DNA from: Kineococcus rhizosphaerae
GTDB taxonomy: Bacteria > Actinomycetota > Actinomycetes > Actinomycetales > Kineococcaceae
Direction: 5' to 3'
Assembly (NCBI RefSeq): GCF_003002055.1
Contig: NZ_PVZF01000005.1
Location: 1 to 64,000 of the forward strand
DNA length: 64,000 nucleotides
Positions 2,608 to 22,451 of the stretch are shown in pieces. The number at the start of each line of letters is the position of its first letter. The first letter of the stretch is position 1. Position numbers and translations under genes: made by a program. The notes beneath the pieces are model-generated. The model saw nothing but the letters and a program-made list of their open reading frames with translations. It was not told the origin of the DNA and searched no databases.

Positions 2608-4752
2608 ATGTCTAGATCCGTGGCCCCTTCTCTGCGCCCCCGTTCGCTGCGCTCCCAGCTCCTGCTGCCGGGGGTGGGCGCGGTCGTCGTGACCGCCGGC
2701 CTGCTCAGCGCGCTGTCCGCGGTGCAGGTCCGGGGGCTGTCCCAGGACACCGCCGCCGACGTCCGCACGATGTCCGAGCAGTCCCTGCACGACGCCGGGA
2801 CGCAGGTGCAGACGACGGTGGCGGCGCAGGCCGCCGCCGTGCAGAACTGGCTCGACTCCGACCTGCGCGTCACCGGTGACCGGCTGGGCCAGTTCGGCCC
2901 GGCCGCCGTCGACACCGGGCAGAGCGCGACGTGGACCGCCACCAACCAGGCCACCAAGGCCAAGAGCAGCGTGACGCTGCCGCGGCTGGAGTTCGGCGGC
3001 ACCTGGCTCGGGCAGCAGGGCGACCCGTCGGTGCCGGTCCCCGCCATCGACGAGTCGGCCCGGCTGACCGGGGCGGCCGTCACCGTCTTCCAGAAGATGA
3101 ACGACGCCGGCGACATGCTGCGGGTCGCGACGACGGTCGTCGGTGCGAACGGCTCGCGCGCCATCGGCACCTACATCCCCGCCACCGGCGCCGACGGCAC
3201 CCCCAACGCCGTCGTGAAGTCGCTGCTGGCGGGCCAGACGTACCACGGCACCGCGACGGTCGTGGACAAGCCCTACGTCACGGTCTACGAACCGCTGAAG
3301 GTCGGCGACCAGGTCGTCGGGGCGGTCTTCGTCGGCCTGCCGCAGGCCGACGTCACCGACACCCTGCGCCAGGCCCTGGCGTCCTCCACGGTCGGCCGCA
3401 ACGGCTACTACGCCGTCTTCTCCGACGCGGCCGCCACCAGCGGGACCGCCGTCGTCGCGCCGGAAGGGGCGAAGGACGGCGACGCGATGGCCGACGCCGT
3501 CGACGCCGACGGGCACCCCTACGTCCAGCAGCTGCTGGCGACCGCGAAGGGCCTGCAGCCCGGGGAGTTCACGACCACGCACGTCCGGCTGCCCGCGGGC
3601 GGCTACACCGTCGGCGTCTCACGCTACGGCGCCTACAACTGGGTCGTGACGAGCTGGCTGCCCGACGCCGACACGACGGCCGTGACGGACCGGGTCGCCG
3701 CCGGCGGGGCCAGCCTGGTCCGCAACACCGTCCTGCTCGGGGCCGGCGTCGCGCTGCTCATGGCCGCGGTGATCGCCCTGCTGGCCCGCTCGCTGGTGGC
3801 CCGCATCGGCCGGCTCACCGCCGTCCTGCGCCGCGTGGCCGCCCGGGACCTGTCGGCGCGCGTCCTGGCCGACGGCGAGCGCCACGGCGACGACGAGCTC
3901 GGCACGATGGGCCGGGCCCTGGACGAGGCCACCTCCGCGGTGCGCGACGCGCTCGTGGCCATGAACGCCGGCGCGGGCCGCGTCACCGAGGCCGCCCGCA
4001 CCCTCGACGGGGCCAGCGACCGGCTGGCGGGGACGGCGACGTCGACCGCGGCGCAGATCGTGCAGGTCACCGGGGACGCGACGACCGTCTCGGCGGGGGT
4101 CCACGAGGTGTCCGCGGCCGTCGAGCAGCTGCGCGCGGCCGCCGACGAGGTGTCCGCCACGACCAGCAGCGTGACGCTCGTGGCCGCCGACGCCGTGCAG
4201 CTCGCGCAGACCGCGACCGGGACGGTGGAGCGGCTGGGGTCCAGCTCCCAGCAGATCGCCGACGTGCTGCGCACCATCACGGCGATCGCGGCGCAGACGA
4301 ACCTGCTGGCCCTCAACGCCACCATCGAGGCCGCCCGCGCCGGGGAGGCCGGGGCCGGGTTCGCCGTCGTCGCCGAGGAGGTCAAGGAGCTGTCGCGGCA
4401 GACGGCGCTGGCCACCGAGGAGATCGCCCCGACGCTGACGGCCGTGCAGTCGGAGGCGTCCGCGGTGCGCGCCGACATCGCCCGCATCACCGAGACCATC
4501 GCGCACATCGACGAGCTGCAGACGACGATCGCGGCGGCCGTCGCCGAGCAGCTGGCCACCACGACGGCCGTCAGCGGCACCCTGCACGTCGCGGCCGACC
4601 GGTCCTCGGGGATCTCCAGCGCCCTGGAGCGGACGGTCGGGGCCGTGCACGGGACGACGGCGGAGGTCGGCGCGGTGCGCGGTTCCGTCGAGGACCTGTC
4701 GGCGGTGGCGCGCCAGCTCGACGACCAGGTGCGCCAGTTCACGCTGCGCTGA
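2608..4752 (+). CDS. methyl-accepting chemotaxis protein with periplasmic Cache-type sensor
   Basis: A 714-residue chemoreceptor. Order: one membrane helix near the N-terminus ([20 protein letters not shown]), an extracellular region of about 320 residues resembling a single Cache domain (ends [20 protein letters not shown]), a second membrane helix ([19 protein letters not shown]), a HAMP linker, then a cytoplasmic signalling helix pair with the hairpin tip [20 protein letters not shown]. It would bind a small ligand outside and control CheA. I chose ATG 2608; an in-frame TTG at 2584 would add 8 residues. No che genes lie beside it, so it is an orphan receptor. Confidence 0.92.
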
Positions 4753-16844: not shown

Positions 16845-19800
16845 ATGGGGGATGCGAGCTCGACCCGTCCCGGGCGCGGCACGACGCTGCCCCCCGGGGA
16901 GGTGAGTCTGGTCCCCGCACCGACCGTCTCCCGGCTGAGCGTGGAGACCGTCGAGCCCCCGTGGACGGTCCTGCGCGAGCTCGGCCGCGGCGCCGGGTCG
17001 GTCGTCCACCTCGCCGTGCGCGGCGACCGGGAGTACGCCCTCAAGCGCCAGCGGCCCGGTCCGCCCGGCGCTGCCCCGCCGGACCCCTCCGAGGGCGAGC
17101 GCACCCTGCGCCGCGAGGCGGCGCTGCTGGCCAGCGTCCACCACCCGGGGCTCACCCGGGTGCACGCGGTGACCGAGGTCGAGGGCCGGCTCGCGATCGT
17201 CATGGACGCCCACGACGGCACCTCGCTGGCCGACCTGCTGCACTCCCCGGCCGGCCCCGCCGCGGACCCCTCCGAGGTCCCCACGGGCCCGCTGCCGGTG
17301 GCCACGACCCTGCGGCTGGTCGTCGACGTCTGCGACGCGCTGCACGCGCTGCACCTCAACGGCCTCGTGCACCGCGACGTGAAGCCGTCGAACGTGCTGC
17401 TCACCCGGGCGGGCCGGGGCGTGCTGGTCGACCTCGGCGTGGCGCACCTGGAGACGGGCAGCCCCACCGGGCCGCCGGCGCACCCCGACGAGCCCGGACG
17501 GCGGCACGCCGACCCGCGCGGCACCGGCGGCGACGGCTCGGACGCCGAGACCGGGGCCCTGCTGTACCGCTCCCCCGAGCAGGCGGGGGTCGTGCGCAGC
17601 CCCGTGGACCACCGCTCCGACCTGTACTCGGTGGGCGCGGTCCTCCTGGAGTGCCTGACCGGACGCACCCCCGTCACCGGCGCCGACGCCGCGCAGGTCC
17701 GCCGCCGGCTCGCGCGGCTGGCGCCCCTGGACCCGCGGACCCTGGGCCCGGACGTGCCCGCGGCCCTGGGCGGACTGCTGCGCCGGCTCCTGCTGCCGGA
17801 CCCGCAGGAGCGCCCCGACGACGCCGGTGCCGTGGCGGACGAGCTGGCCCGGATCGCCGCCGACACCTCCCCCGACGTCGCGCTGGGACGGCGCAGCTGG
17901 ACCAGCCCGACCGACGGGCCGCTGCTGGAGCGCGGTCGACAGAGCGCCCTGCTGGACGCCGCCTGGGACAACGCCGGCGCCGGCGCGGGAGGTGTCGTCG
18001 TCGTGCGCGGAGCCGCGGGGACGGGACGCTCGGCCCTCGTCGAGCGGTTGCGGCGCAAGGTCCTGGCCCAGGGGGCGGCGGCGGTCGTGCTGGACACCAC
18101 CCGGTCCCCGAGCGCGCCGCTGAGCGCGCTGCGCCGGGCCATGACCACGGCCGGCCTCACCGCGACCGGCCCGGGCACCGCCGAGGCGCCCGCGGCGCAG
18201 AGCGGGACGGCCGTCCTCGACCGGGAGGACCTGGACGACCCCCGCCCGCAGGCCCTGGCCGAGGAGCTGCTGCAGCACGCGGCGCGCACCGGTCCCCTGC
18301 TCGTCGTCCTCGACGACACCGAGCACGCCGACGCCTCGACCCTGGCCGTCGTGCGCTGGGTGGCGGGCGAGTGCGCGGACCTGCCGCTGCTCGTCGTGCT
18401 GGTCGACCGGCCCCGCTCCGGCACCGACGACGACGACGCGATCCCCGGCTTCGAGACCGCGCGCGCCGTCGTGCTGGAGGTGCCCGCCCTGTCCGACGCC
18501 GCGGCCCGCGCCGTCGTGCGCCGCCGGTTGCCGGGCGCCGTGGTGACCGACTCGGTCGCCACGGCCCTGGTCTCGCGCGCGGCGGGCAACCCCGGCGCGC
18601 TGCTGACGTTGCTGACGACGCTGCTCGACGCCGGCGGACTGCTGCCCGACTGGGGCCACTGGCGCCTGGAACACGCTGCGCTGGAAGCGGTTCCCGTCGC
18701 ACCGCGGCTGCTGACGGCGCTGCTGCGCCGGCTGGACGAACTGCCGGCGGGACACCGCGACGTGCTGCGGCTGGCCGCGGCGTGCGGACGCTCGGTCGAC
18801 GACCACCTCGTGCTGCGCGCCGCGGGCCCGCGCGTGGACGCCGACGCCGTCCACGCCGGGCTCGCCTCCGGGGTCGCCGCCCGGTTGCTGCGGGCCCTGC
18901 CCGGGGGCCGACACGAGTTCCTGCACCAGCAGGTCGTCGACGCCGTCCTGGAGGGCGTCGAGGAGGGCGAGCGCCGTGCCCTGCACGCCCGGCTGGCCCG
19001 CGTCCTGCGCGCCGGTCCCCGGGCCCGCGGGGAGGGCACCGACCGGGACGCGCTGTTCGCGTGCGCGCACCAGCACCTGCGCGCCGGGGACGCGGTCACC
19101 CCCTCCGAGGTCGTCGACGCGTGCGCGGCCGCGGGCGTGGAGGCGGCCCGCCAGTTCGCCTCCGACAGCGCCGTCACGCTGCTGTCGCAGGCGGTCCGGA
19201 CGGCCGACGGGGCCGGTCTGGCCCTGGACCCCCGGCTGCGGCGGCTGCTGGCCGCGTGCCTGGCCCGGCAGGGCCGCCACGCCGACGCCCGCACCCACCT
19301 GGACCACCTGGTCCGCACGGCGCAGGACCCCGTCGAACGCGCCGTCGCGCTCGGCGAGGTCGCCGTGCTGCACCGGCACGAACGGACGCCGCGGGCACCG
19401 GACCGCACCTCCCGCGCCGCGGCCGAGGGGTTGCGGACCCTCGGGGCCCCCCGGCCCACGGGCACGACCGGCTGGTGGACGTTCGCGCTGGCCTCGCTGC
19501 TGGTCCTGGCCGGGTCCGTCCTGGCCCGCGGCCACCGGCGCGCCAGCCGGCACCGGCTGGACTCCCCGCGCGAGGTGGAGCGGGCGACCCTGGAGGGCGC
19601 GCACGCCGTCCTGCTGCGGGAGGCCGCCGCCGCGGACCTGCAGACGGGGCGGGCGGTGGTGGCAACCCCCACCGCGGTGGCGGCGTGGGCGCACGCGCTG
19701 CGGGCGCGCCGGCCCGACCTGGCCCGCGACGCCCGGCGGACCGTGCGCGCGGCCCTGGACCAGGCCCTGACCGGACGGCTCACGGTCCTGCCGGTCCGGC

Positions 19801-22451
19801 TGCCCGGCAGCGCCGACCTCGTGGGGCTGCCGCTGACGCCCCCGACCCCCCGCGCCGGTGAGGGCGACCCGACCCTGGTGGCCTCGCTGCGGCTGGCGGA
19901 GGGGTTGCGCCGGTTGCGGGCCGGCGGGACGTGGCGGGCCGTGGCCGACGTGCTGGAGGCCGACGGGCAGTGGCTCGACCTGCCGGCCTACGTCCTCGGC
20001 ACGCAGGCCGTGGTGCTGGAACGGCTGGCCGCGGGGCACCTGGGGACCGCCGCGGCCTGGCAGGCCCGGGCCCTGCGGCGGGTGCCCGAGGGGGCGCCCG
20101 TGCCGGCCGGGCTCGAGCTCGTGCGGGTCGCCGTCCTGGGGGCCAAGGGGCGCCCCGGGGAGGCCGGTGACCTGCTGGAGGCCCTGCGGCGCGACGTGGC
20201 CGGCGAGGCGGTGCAGAACCCGGCGGGCGAGGCCACGAGCGGTGCCACGGACGGCGCGGAGGGGGTCTCGCCCCTGCACGAGCTGCAGCTGCAGCTCGTG
20301 ACGACCGACTGGCTCCTGCAGCAGGGCGACCTGTCCGAGCGGTTCGACCGCGTCGGCGAGCAGGTCCTGCGGCTGGTCCGTGGTTCCCGGCTGCGCGGGG
20401 CGTCCGAGGTCCGCTGGGTGCTGACCCTCGTGCTGCGCGGCCGGCTGACCCGCGCCGCGCAGCTGGAACGGGCCGGCGGCGCCCTGGCCGGGCAGGAGCG
20501 CCAGCTCACGGAGCTGCTGCGCGCCCTCGGTCGGCGCCGGGGCAGCGCCGTGCAGGACGCCCTCGTCGACGTGGCCCGCGCCGAGGTCGCGCACCGCCTG
20601 GGCCGCCCGCGGCGCGCGGCGCGGCTGCTGCGCCGGGTCGAGGTCCGCTGCGCCCACCTCGACGCGCCGCTGGTGGACCACCACGTCCTGCAGCTGCGCG
20701 CCGAGGTGGTCGAGCGGGCCGGGTCCCGGCCGGACGCGGACCGCATGCGGTGGATGGCCACCGCCCTGGCCGAGAAGCACGGCTGGGTGGGCCTCGTCCA
20801 GCGCGGACGCGCGGGCCTGCCGCCCGGGGCACCCGCCGCGGGCGCCGTCCGCGGCCCCTGGACGCCCGCCCCGGGCCGCCGGCGTCGGCTGCTGTCGGCC
20901 ATGCGCGACGTGGGGCACGCCGCGCAGGTCCTGGACCCGCAGGACGTGGTCCGCCTGGCCCTCGACCAGGCGTGCGAGGTGCTCGGCGCCGACCGGGCCG
21001 TCCTGGCCGTCCGGGACGACCAGGACGAGCTCGTCGTGTTCGCCGGCCGGACCCGCTCGGGCACCGACCTGCCGCAGGGTGCCCCCGTCGACCCCGCCGT
21101 CGACCCCGCGGCCGACCGGGCCGCTCGCACCGGCCGGCCCGTCGTGCGCGGCGCCCTCGGCTCCGCCTTCGACACCGGCCCCGAGCCCGCGCCCGACGCG
21201 CAGCACCACGGGGAGGCGGCCCGCAGCGTGGTCGCCGTCCCCCTGCTGGTCCGGGGCCGGCGCACGGGGGTGCTGTGGGCCGTCAGCAGCATGGCCCAGG
21301 GGGTCTTCGGTCGCGGGGACGTGGAGCTGCTGCAGCTCATCGCGGGGCAGGTCGCGGCGTCCCTGGAGACGGCGCGCGCGGCCCGGCTGGAGATCGAGGT
21401 GCACGGCGCGCAGCGCGAGCGCGACCTGGCCGAGGCCGTCCGCCGGGTCACCGAGGAGGTCTCCGGCAGCCTGGACCTGGCCACCGTCCGGCGCCGGCTG
21501 CTGCGCTCGGCCATCGCCGAGCTCGGTGCGCGACGGGGGGCCCTGGTACCGGTCGCGGGACGCCCGGGCGTGGACGCGGACCCGCCGGCCCTCGTCGTGG
21601 CGGCCGGGGCCCCGAGCGTGCGCGAGGTCGCTTGGAGCCGCGACTGGCAGGGCGAGCCCGACTGCGTGCGCCTCCTGGAGAGCGCCTCGGCCACCCACGG
21701 CGACGGTGCGCTGCCGACCCGGCTGGGCGGGCTGCTCGACCTGGCCGGGGCCCGGGGCCCGGTCGCCGACGAGGGCGAGCAGTGGCTCGTCGTGCCCCTG
21801 AAGGACCGGACGGGTCTGGTGGCCGAGGCGCTGGTGCTCTCCGGTGGCGGCGACGGGCCGGCGTCGCGGTCCCACGTGGCGCAGGCCCTGGCCGCTCCCG
21901 CGGCGATCGGCCTGGAGAACGCCCGGCTGTTCGCCCAGGTCGAGCACCTGGCCCGCACGGACTCCCTGACCGGCGTCGCCACCCGGGGCCACCTGCTGCG
22001 CCTGGGCGAGCAGCGGGTGAGCCGGGCGGCGGGGCGCGACGTCGCGGTGATCATGGTGGACGTCGACCACTTCAAGTCCGTCAACGACACCTACGGCCAC
22101 GCCGCGGGGGACGAGGTGCTGACGGCGGTGGCGCGCCGGCTGCAGCACGAGACCCGCGAGTCCGACGTCCTGGGCCGCTACGGCGGCGAGGAGTTCGCCC
22201 TCGTCGTGACCAGTCCCGACCCCGAGGAGGGTCGCGGGCCGCTGGACGCACGGGAGGTGGCCGAACGGCTGCGGCTGGGCGTGCGCCGCACCCCGGTGGG
22301 CGTGCGCGGCGCGCAGCTGCAGGTCACCGTCAGCGTCGGGGTGGCGCTCCTGCGCGAGGGCGAGCAGCTGTCCGACGTCCTCGCGCGCGCCGACGCCGCG
22401 CTCTACCGGGCCAAGGAGTCCGGCCGCGACGTCGTCGCCGTGGACCCCTGA
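16845..22451 (+). CDS. giant Ser/Thr kinase - ATPase - GAF - GAF - GGDEF signalling protein
   Basis: An 1868-residue protein. Residues about 41-320: a protein kinase with intact catalytic residues (Lys67; HRDVKPSN with Asp178; DLG at 196-198; SPE at 243-245). About 360-640: an AAA/STAND-like ATPase with Walker A GAAGTGRS, where Arg395 replaces the usual Lys, and Walker B LLVVLDD. About 650-1330: an all-helical, TPR-like region with one hydrophobic stretch near 876-895. About 1350-1500 and 1540-1690: two GAF domains. About 1700-1868: GGDEF with active site GGEEF (1780-1784) and RxxD inhibitory site (RESD). It resembles HstK-type kinase-ATPase-GAF proteins, with a cyclase replacing the histidine kinase. 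Ribosome-binding site GAGGAAA. Confidence 0.9.
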   Translation: MGDASSTRPGRGTTLPPGEVSLVPAPTVSRLSVETVEPPWTVLRELGRGAGSVVHLAVRGDREYALKRQRPGPPGAAPPDPSEGERTLRREAALLASVHHPGLTRVHAVTEVEGRLAIVMDAHDGTSLADLLHSPAGPAADPSEVPTGPLPVATTLRLVVDVCDALHALHLNGLVHRDVKPSNVLLTRAGRGVLVDLGVAHLETGSPTGPPAHPDEPGRRHADPRGTGGDGSDAETGALLYRSPEQAGVVRSPVDHRSDLYSVGAVLLECLTGRTPVTGADAAQVRRRLARLAPLDPRTLGPDVPAALGGLLRRLLLPDPQERPDDAGAVADELARIAADTSPDVALGRRSWTSPTDGPLLERGRQSALLDAAWDNAGAGAGGVVVVRGAAGTGRSALVERLRRKVLAQGAAAVVLDTTRSPSAPLSALRRAMTTAGLTATGPGTAEAPAAQSGTAVLDREDLDDPRPQALAEELLQHAARTGPLLVVLDDTEHADASTLAVVRWVAGECADLPLLVVLVDRPRSGTDDDDAIPGFETARAVVLEVPALSDAAARAVVRRRLPGAVVTDSVATALVSRAAGNPGALLTLLTTLLDAGGLLPDWGHWRLEHAALEAVPVAPRLLTALLRRLDELPAGHRDVLRLAAACGRSVDDHLVLRAAGPRVDADAVHAGLASGVAARLLRALPGGRHEFLHQQVVDAVLEGVEEGERRALHARLARVLRAGPRARGEGTDRDALFACAHQHLRAGDAVTPSEVVDACAAAGVEAARQFASDSAVTLLSQAVRTADGAGLALDPRLRRLLAACLARQGRHADARTHLDHLVRTAQDPVERAVALGEVAVLHRHERTPRAPDRTSRAAAEGLRTLGAPRPTGTTGWWTFALASLLVLAGSVLARGHRRASRHRLDSPREVERATLEGAHAVLLREAAAADLQTGRAVVATPTAVAAWAHALRARRPDLARDARRTVRAALDQALTGRLTVLPVRLPGSADLVGLPLTPPTPRAGEGDPTLVASLRLAEGLRRLRAGGTWRAVADVLEADGQWLDLPAYVLGTQAVVLERLAAGHLGTAAAWQARALRRVPEGAPVPAGLELVRVAVLGAKGRPGEAGDLLEALRRDVAGEAVQNPAGEATSGATDGAEGVSPLHELQLQLVTTDWLLQQGDLSERFDRVGEQVLRLVRGSRLRGASEVRWVLTLVLRGRLTRAAQLERAGGALAGQERQLTELLRALGRRRGSAVQDALVDVARAEVAHRLGRPRRAARLLRRVEVRCAHLDAPLVDHHVLQLRAEVVERAGSRPDADRMRWMATALAEKHGWVGLVQRGRAGLPPGAPAAGAVRGPWTPAPGRRRRLLSAMRDVGHAAQVLDPQDVVRLALDQACEVLGADRAVLAVRDDQDELVVFAGRTRSGTDLPQGAPVDPAVDPAADRAARTGRPVVRGALGSAFDTGPEPAPDAQHHGEAARSVVAVPLLVRGRRTGVLWAVSSMAQGVFGRGDVELLQLIAGQVAASLETARAARLEIEVHGAQRERDLAEAVRRVTEEVSGSLDLATVRRRLLRSAIAELGARRGALVPVAGRPGVDADPPALVVAAGAPSVREVAWSRDWQGEPDCVRLLESASATHGDGALPTRLGGLLDLAGARGPVADEGEQWLVVPLKDRTGLVAEALVLSGGGDGPASRSHVAQALAAPAAIGLENARLFAQVEHLARTDSLTGVATRGHLLRLGEQRVSRAAGRDVAVIMVDVDHFKSVNDTYGHAAGDEVLTAVARRLQHETRESDVLGRYGGEEFALVVTSPDPEEGRGPLDAREVAERLRLGVRRTPVGVRGAQLQVTVSVGVALLREGEQLSDVLARADAALYRAKESGRDVVAVDP

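Follow-up and report, generated by a model that had tools for sequence, protein, structure and literature searches.

Does one polypeptide of Kineococcus rhizosphaerae tie protein phosphorylation to the synthesis of cyclic-di-GMP? The question is raised by a gene within the window, the whole stretch of 64,000 nucleotides analysed here, which comes from a genome of 5.61 Mb in 63 contigs (G000). Positions 16845-22451 of the forward strand form a single open reading frame that begins with ATG, contains no internal stop codon and encodes 1868 amino acids. Its G+C content at codon positions 1, 2 and 3 (0.858/0.558/0.966) follows the pattern expected of a coding frame where genomic G+C is very high, and the full-length protein is 72-76% identical to four Kineococcus orthologues and 56% identical to a fifth, which rules out a chance frame. 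An antisense frame of 2159 amino acids across the same stretch was dismissed as an effect of high G+C: both the codon-position G+C and the orthologues favour the forward frame. In gene order it comes after aroA and rsgA, with a VKOR-like gene facing it (names read from the translations); a search for consensus promoters and terminators found none for it. Elsewhere in the window, the DNA at 4251-4551 resembles parts of Azospirillum plasmids whose annotation names methyl-accepting chemotaxis or cache-domain proteins and is probably part of a chemoreceptor gene.

From the letters alone, the original prediction had read a kinase, a STAND-like ATPase, a long helical region, two GAF domains and a GGDEF domain with an RxxD site, in this order and in one frame. 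The order was borne out by the reading frame, by four Pfam domains (Pkinase, AAA_16, GAF_2 and GGDEF, in that sequence), by an AlphaFold2 model of the middle part and by a profile of the second GAF domain (Table 1). The individual residues named in the prediction (Lys67, Asp178, DLG196 and SPE243 of the kinase, Arg in place of the Walker A Lys in GAAGTGR389-395, RESD1771 and GGEEF1780) were likewise all found where they had been placed. The protein is probably cytosolic. Its most hydrophobic stretch (aa 876-894, Kyte-Doolittle 1.71) was considered as a membrane anchor and rejected, being weak and lying, in the AlphaFold2 model, inside one of the repeat-region helices. A reading as a defence system was also rejected: among the 31 PADLOC matches, the best stretches of the 25 listed all fall within aa 25-428, that is the kinase and its edge, as a generic kinase would fit.

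Table 1. Features of the kinase-GGDEF gene, with positions in the window
Feature	Position	Strand	Basis
Whole gene: 1868-aa kinase-STAND-GAF-GAF-GGDEF protein	16845..22451	+	ORF, Pfam, orthologue identity
Ser/Thr protein kinase domain, aa 40-332; Lys67, Glu91, HRD176-178, Asn183, DLG196, SPE243	16962..17840	+	Pfam, motif check, alignment
AAA_16 / predicted STAND NTPase core, aa 360-518	17922..18398	+	Pfam, AlphaFold2, Foldseek
P-loop GAAGTGRS, aa 389-396, Arg395 instead of Lys	18009..18032	+	Motif check, alignment
Walker B VVLDD, aa 487-491	18303..18317	+	Motif check, alignment
Winged-helix-like region after NTPase core, about aa 569-692	18549..18920	+	Helix/strand pattern of AlphaFold2 model, our reading
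Predicted helical-repeat (TPR-like) superstructure, about aa 707-1324	18963..20816	+	AlphaFold2, 13 sequences, mean pLDDT 81; TPR_19 match below cut-off
GAF domain 1, aa 1363-1508	20931..21368	+	Pfam
Inter-GAF coil, aa 1513-1541; 97-100% identity to five orthologues	21381..21467	+	Alignment
GAF domain 2, divergent, aa 1542-1690	21468..21914	+	Profile search, hhalign
GGDEF diguanylate cyclase domain, aa 1704-1862	21954..22430	+	Pfam, phmmer
RESD inhibitory-site motif, aa 1771-1774	22155..22166	+	Motif check, alignment
GGEEF active-site motif, aa 1780-1784	22182..22196	+	Motif check, alignment

The two ends of the protein carry the domains that would perform catalysis. The kinase is matched by Pfam over aa 41-325 (5.6e-26) and, among solved structures searched with phmmer, by PknB (3f69_A, 2.7e-23). 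Counting HQD for HRD in four members of one family (f36) as complete, the Lys, Glu, HxDxKxxN and DxG residues of a Hanks-type kinase are complete in 11 of the 12 GGDEF-bearing members described below, the K. rhizosphaerae protein included. The exception is the orthologue of genome G008 (L021, 6263-11785), in which the kinase is eroded (HGD, DVEP and DPD, with most of the activation segment missing) and the GGDEF domain is kept, which suggests that kinase activity is unnecessary in some members. At the C-terminus, the GGDEF domain matches Pfam over aa 1704-1862 (8.7e-40) and solved diguanylate cyclases (3ign_A, 3.6e-32). GGEEF is a motif of cyclase activity and RxxD one of product inhibition; both, together with Asp1739, which we take to be a metal ligand of the domain, are kept in all 12 members with a GGDEF domain among the 13 proteins aligned. 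Apart from this gene, the source genome has another 69 GGDEF-like places at E <= 1e-3 (73 rows in all, including three kinases), which is remarkably many for 5.6 Mb.

Between these ends lies a putative STAND-class module. AAA_16 is matched at aa 360-518 (5.2e-16), and the sequence GNP581-583, in which Gly581 and Pro583 are invariant in all 13 aligned members, presumably represents the GxP motif that ends the NTPase part of STAND proteins. A single-sequence model of aa 345-1355 reached a pLDDT of only 42.5 and was discarded; modelling was repeated with 13 sequences for aa 355-1345 (mean pLDDT 81.4, pTM 0.68). The resulting model predicts an alpha/beta NTPase core, followed by short strand pairs that we read as winged-helix-like and then by 27 helices, in agreement with the long helical region that had been proposed. 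Searched against the PDB with Foldseek, it gave 73 matches at E <= 0.001, of which the top one is a STAND-TPR protein (6mfv_A, 2.8e-8) and later ones include ORC/Cdc6, a structure of a maltose-system regulator (8bob_C, 7.9e-6), CED-4 and NLRP7; many further matches are unrelated TPR or repeat proteins. TM-scores by query length reach 0.13-0.31 in the 50 matches listed, as low as a long flexible superhelix would lead one to expect, but not strong taken alone. Together, model and structural matches support the assignment of the middle part to the STAND class. The P-loop residue divides the aligned members, with Arg in eight (six Kineococcus proteins and two of family f35) and Lys in five (four of f36 and L030, a protein without a GGDEF domain). 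Because it is inherited across a whole subgroup, Arg395 is no accident.

The two GAF domains differ in how readily they are recognized. GAF 1 is matched by Pfam (GAF_2, 1.1e-15), and GAF 2 has no Pfam match in this protein. A profile of GAF 2 (A8; 11 of the 13 aligned members, leaving out L019 and L021) retrieved 13 sequences from the PDB at E <= 1. Sensor histidine kinases, an adenylate cyclase and a sensor protein make up the best ten (4.2e-5 to 0.014), which include 8w26 (4.2e-5) and 1ykd (8e-5); one entry is assigned by name to the GAF family, and we take the others to be GAF domains as well. In addition, hhalign pairs this profile with GAF 1 of the same proteins at a probability of 94.4%; both results support the second GAF domain. 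Pfam itself marks two GAF stretches in some relatives (L039, L040, L052, L053 and L054) and one in others (L055 and L030). The coil between the two domains is near-invariant, also in the orthologue whose overall identity is 56%. Identity to the five Kineococcus orthologues is 62-79% for the kinase, 57-79% for the ATPase core, 63-85% for the region after the core, 42-66% for the repeat region, 73-85% for GAF 1, 53-75% for GAF 2 and 72-88% for the GGDEF domain. Thus, the GGDEF domain is well conserved, although other parts are likewise.

The genus offers a natural comparison of genomes with and without the gene. Seven of 12 family genomes, the source genome included, match at 1e-12; six have full-length frames, so that there are five full-length orthologues besides the protein itself, and in the seventh (G009) the gene is split by contig ends and was for this reason left out of the alignment. 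In six of the seven (the source genome, G001, G002, G006, G008 and, over two contigs, G009) rsgA precedes the gene and VKOR follows it. G005 (L019, 1-5885) retains the upstream side from a sigma factor to rsgA; a search of the 5.9 kb that follow the gene found no homologue of VKOR, hisN, CPBP or mscS, indicating that its downstream side is rearranged. Four relatives (G007, G003, G010 and G011; L067, L068, L070 and L071) have a clean empty site, with 61-127 bp from rsgA to VKOR measured between tblastn ends. In a fifth, G004, the gene was not found, in an assembly of 1060 contigs whose relevant contig ends just after VKOR, so the gene may be missed there. Its absence at this junction indicates that the gene is dispensable. 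On a genus tree built from the concatenated neighbour genes of the 12 genomes, in which 40% of columns are filled for G004, the distribution of the gene takes three changes. We read these as one gain at the rsgA-VKOR site and several losses, because repeated independent insertions into the same junction would be less probable.

Beyond the genus, a search for the same domain order, which had been suggested with the original prediction, yielded further proteins. Eleven more full-length proteins have the order kinase-AAA_16-GAF-GGDEF. Five of them are from Kineococcus and six from two further actinomycete families (G099 and G192 in f35; G083, G202, G221 and G100 in f36), giving 12 in all from three families. 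A search within the taxonomic order covered 39 genomes with up to 21 candidates scored in each and gave one new match, G025. A search within the class with the middle part as query (118 genomes, up to six candidates scored in each) gave five matching genomes, the source included, of which G083 and G099 hold members and G062 and G081 do not; a second, with profile A3 (197 genomes, three candidates scored per listed row), gave seven, again including the source. These searches drew partly on the same genomes, and the lack of a match in them says little. A first scan of genome contigs was without a relative, a second returned two Kineococcus and three distant loci, and plasmid searches gave no record covering 80% of the query among the matches listed. 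Other proteins with AAA_16 matches were set aside as non-members because they carry BTAD (L022, L024, L041, L043 and L044), GerE (L026) or guanylate cyclase (L042).

The match in G025 (L030, 6549-13290) has the Pkinase-AAA_16-GAF order without GGDEF, and its kinase reads HRDIRP..T with GFG in place of DFG. The gene for a separate protein of 572 amino acids lies 70 bp upstream in the same orientation; the C-terminal part of this protein is a GGDEF domain, and its N-terminal part looks repeat-like by eye and is matched by nothing in Pfam. In both f35 genomes a GGDEF-EAL gene lies divergent to the family gene (L039, 9063-11390; L054, 9839-12244). These neighbours are circumstantial links to cyclic-di-GMP. 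Two f36 genomes have another frame with a kinase match upstream of the family gene (L040, 1993-4080; L052, 11009-13000).

Trees were inferred for both ends of the architecture. In the GGDEF tree the 12 family domains stand on one side of a branch and ten others, seven of the 69 from the source genome and three from neighbour genes, on the other (support 76/73; 70% of bootstrap trees), which is compatible with a single origin of the family domains. In the kinase-plus-ATPase tree the 12 proteins and L030 split from five other proteins of the same chassis, three of them with a histidine kinase (97/94); long branches meet among these five. Here, because L030 lacks the domain, the GGDEF label requires two changes.

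What might such a protein do? We give about an even chance to the reading that it is a one-protein signal integrator with cyclic-di-GMP as output, a STAND- and GAF-gated diguanylate cyclase tuned by its own kinase. In the mechanism we infer, the STAND ATPase and helical superstructure would sense a ligand or partner and change their assembly state, the GAF-coil-GAF array would provide a second input and set the geometry of the GGDEF dimer, and the GGDEF domain would make cyclic-di-GMP, limited by its own RxxD site. The N-terminal kinase would most likely phosphorylate the protein itself or a partner and thereby tune the switch. Besides the eroded kinase of L021, the absence of the gene from several relatives and the low TM-scores, two observations count against this explanation: none of the neighbours recognized in Kineococcus is a cyclic-di-GMP gene, and Arg for the P-loop Lys in eight of 13 members could make the STAND part a switch without hydrolysis. 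A bolder version turns the latter point around, and we offer it only tentatively, as doubtful. These proteins would form an actinomycete family of STAND-gated diguanylate cyclases with NLR- or MalT-like assembly and built-in tuning by the kinase, transmitting to cyclic-di-GMP synthesis via the near-invariant inter-GAF coil; the fixed Arg of Kineococcus and f35 would mark a non-hydrolysing switch, so that the kinase would replace ATP hydrolysis as reset or trigger.

There are three rival explanations. The kinase may be merely a regulatory nucleotide-binding module, leaving a STAND/GAF-gated diguanylate cyclase without any phosphorylation step. This is rather unlikely, given the full residue set in 11 of 12 GGDEF-bearing members from three families; what speaks for it is the erosion of kinase residues in L021, where GGDEF is kept, and in the GGDEF-less L030, together with GFG for DFG in the kinases of two Microvirga HstK-type proteins (L074 and L075). 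Conversely, the kinase could be the real output and the GGDEF domain a sensor of GTP or cyclic-di-GMP acting through RxxD. GGDEF domains acting as receptors are known, and RxxD is invariant in 12 of 12; such receptor-type domains usually lose the GGDEF motif, however, whereas here GGEEF and Asp1739 are invariant and it is the kinase that erodes in one member, so we regard this explanation as improbable. More improbable still is a relic, an accessory gene that is enzymatically competent, of little consequence and retained by drift among the roughly 70 GGDEF domains of its genome. The 69 other GGDEF-like places and the three presence/absence changes would fit this, but synteny is kept on both flanks in six of the seven Kineococcus genomes with the gene (on the upstream flank alone in the seventh), the frame is full-length in six of seven (G009 being cut by contig ends), and motifs and coil are strongly conserved. 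Returning to the integrator tuned by its own kinase, patchy presence and the eroded kinase of L021 point to an accessory role in which the kinase is not always needed. The predicted tie between phosphorylation and cyclic-di-GMP synthesis is thus possible, but it is not universal in the family, as L021 and L030 illustrate. Should the protein be active as predicted, Ser/Thr phosphorylation, STAND nucleotide switching and cyclic-di-GMP would meet in one polypeptide as three currencies of signalling, and nature provides variants that separate the parts: kinase complete or eroded, P-loop Lys or Arg, GGDEF fused or next-door, and gene present or cleanly absent at the same site.

The original prediction knew of no described system of this kind, and for the architecture this was wrong, as the 11 further full-length proteins and an earlier survey demonstrate. 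That survey (PMC1262709, 2005) describes a protein of 1826 amino acids from Clostridium thermocellum ATCC 27405 (gi|23020879) with an N-terminal kinase, six TPR repeats and a C-terminal GGDEF domain, and takes the occurrence of GGDEF with such kinases to imply that they take part in making cyclic diguanylate; both the idea of the fusion and its cyclic-di-GMP interpretation had therefore been put forward before. Compared by description only, this protein resembles that of Kineococcus in its N-terminal kinase, helical repeats, C-terminal GGDEF and length; it differs in being clostridial, and the portion of its description consulted mentions neither ATPase nor GAF. A literature search covering open-licence papers found no experimental or functional work on such fusions. 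The middle part shares its NTPase core, winged-helix-like region and TPR-like superhelix, as modelled, with STAND NTPases that carry a TPR superstructure (6mfv; MalT), but it has Arg for the P-loop Lys, is fused to kinase, GAF and GGDEF domains, and a DNA-binding domain was not found in it.

The TOMM system kinase/cyclase fusion protein (NCBIfam TIGR03903) joins, by model name, a kinase to a cyclase, which in that family is of another kind; the Kineococcus protein scores 132.7 against its cut-off of 705.75, and the best-matched stretch is the kinase. PMC7159879 offers a parallel to this family, formed by different proteins: conflict systems in which STAND NTPases occur along with kinases that are mostly inactive and, in rare cases, with GGDEF. 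A protein of Nostoc sp. ATCC 43529 (L060; Pkinase-AAA_16-GAF-AAA_35) shares the chassis of the Kineococcus protein, with a C-terminal AAA_35 domain where the Kineococcus protein has GGDEF. Anabaena HstK is of the kinase/ATPase/GAF/histidine kinase build. A title to this effect is cited in PMC2176072. The likeness to HstK-type proteins that had been predicted held up: three plasmid-borne examples of 1596-1966 amino acids have the order Pkinase-AAA_16-GAF-HATPase, with the same N-terminal kinase, AAA_16 ATPase, long middle region and GAF, and one of them, from Microvirga terrae (WP_259061015.1, L074), is annotated 'trifunctional serine/threonine-protein kinase/ATP-binding protein/sensor histidine kinase'. 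Their output is a histidine kinase, whereas the six aligned Kineococcus proteins have no C-terminal HisKA or HATPase and carry GGDEF there instead. Judged by its domains, the Kineococcus protein is an HstK-type kinase/ATPase/GAF chassis in which a predicted diguanylate cyclase replaces the histidine kinase output, inherited within a protein family of actinomycetes.
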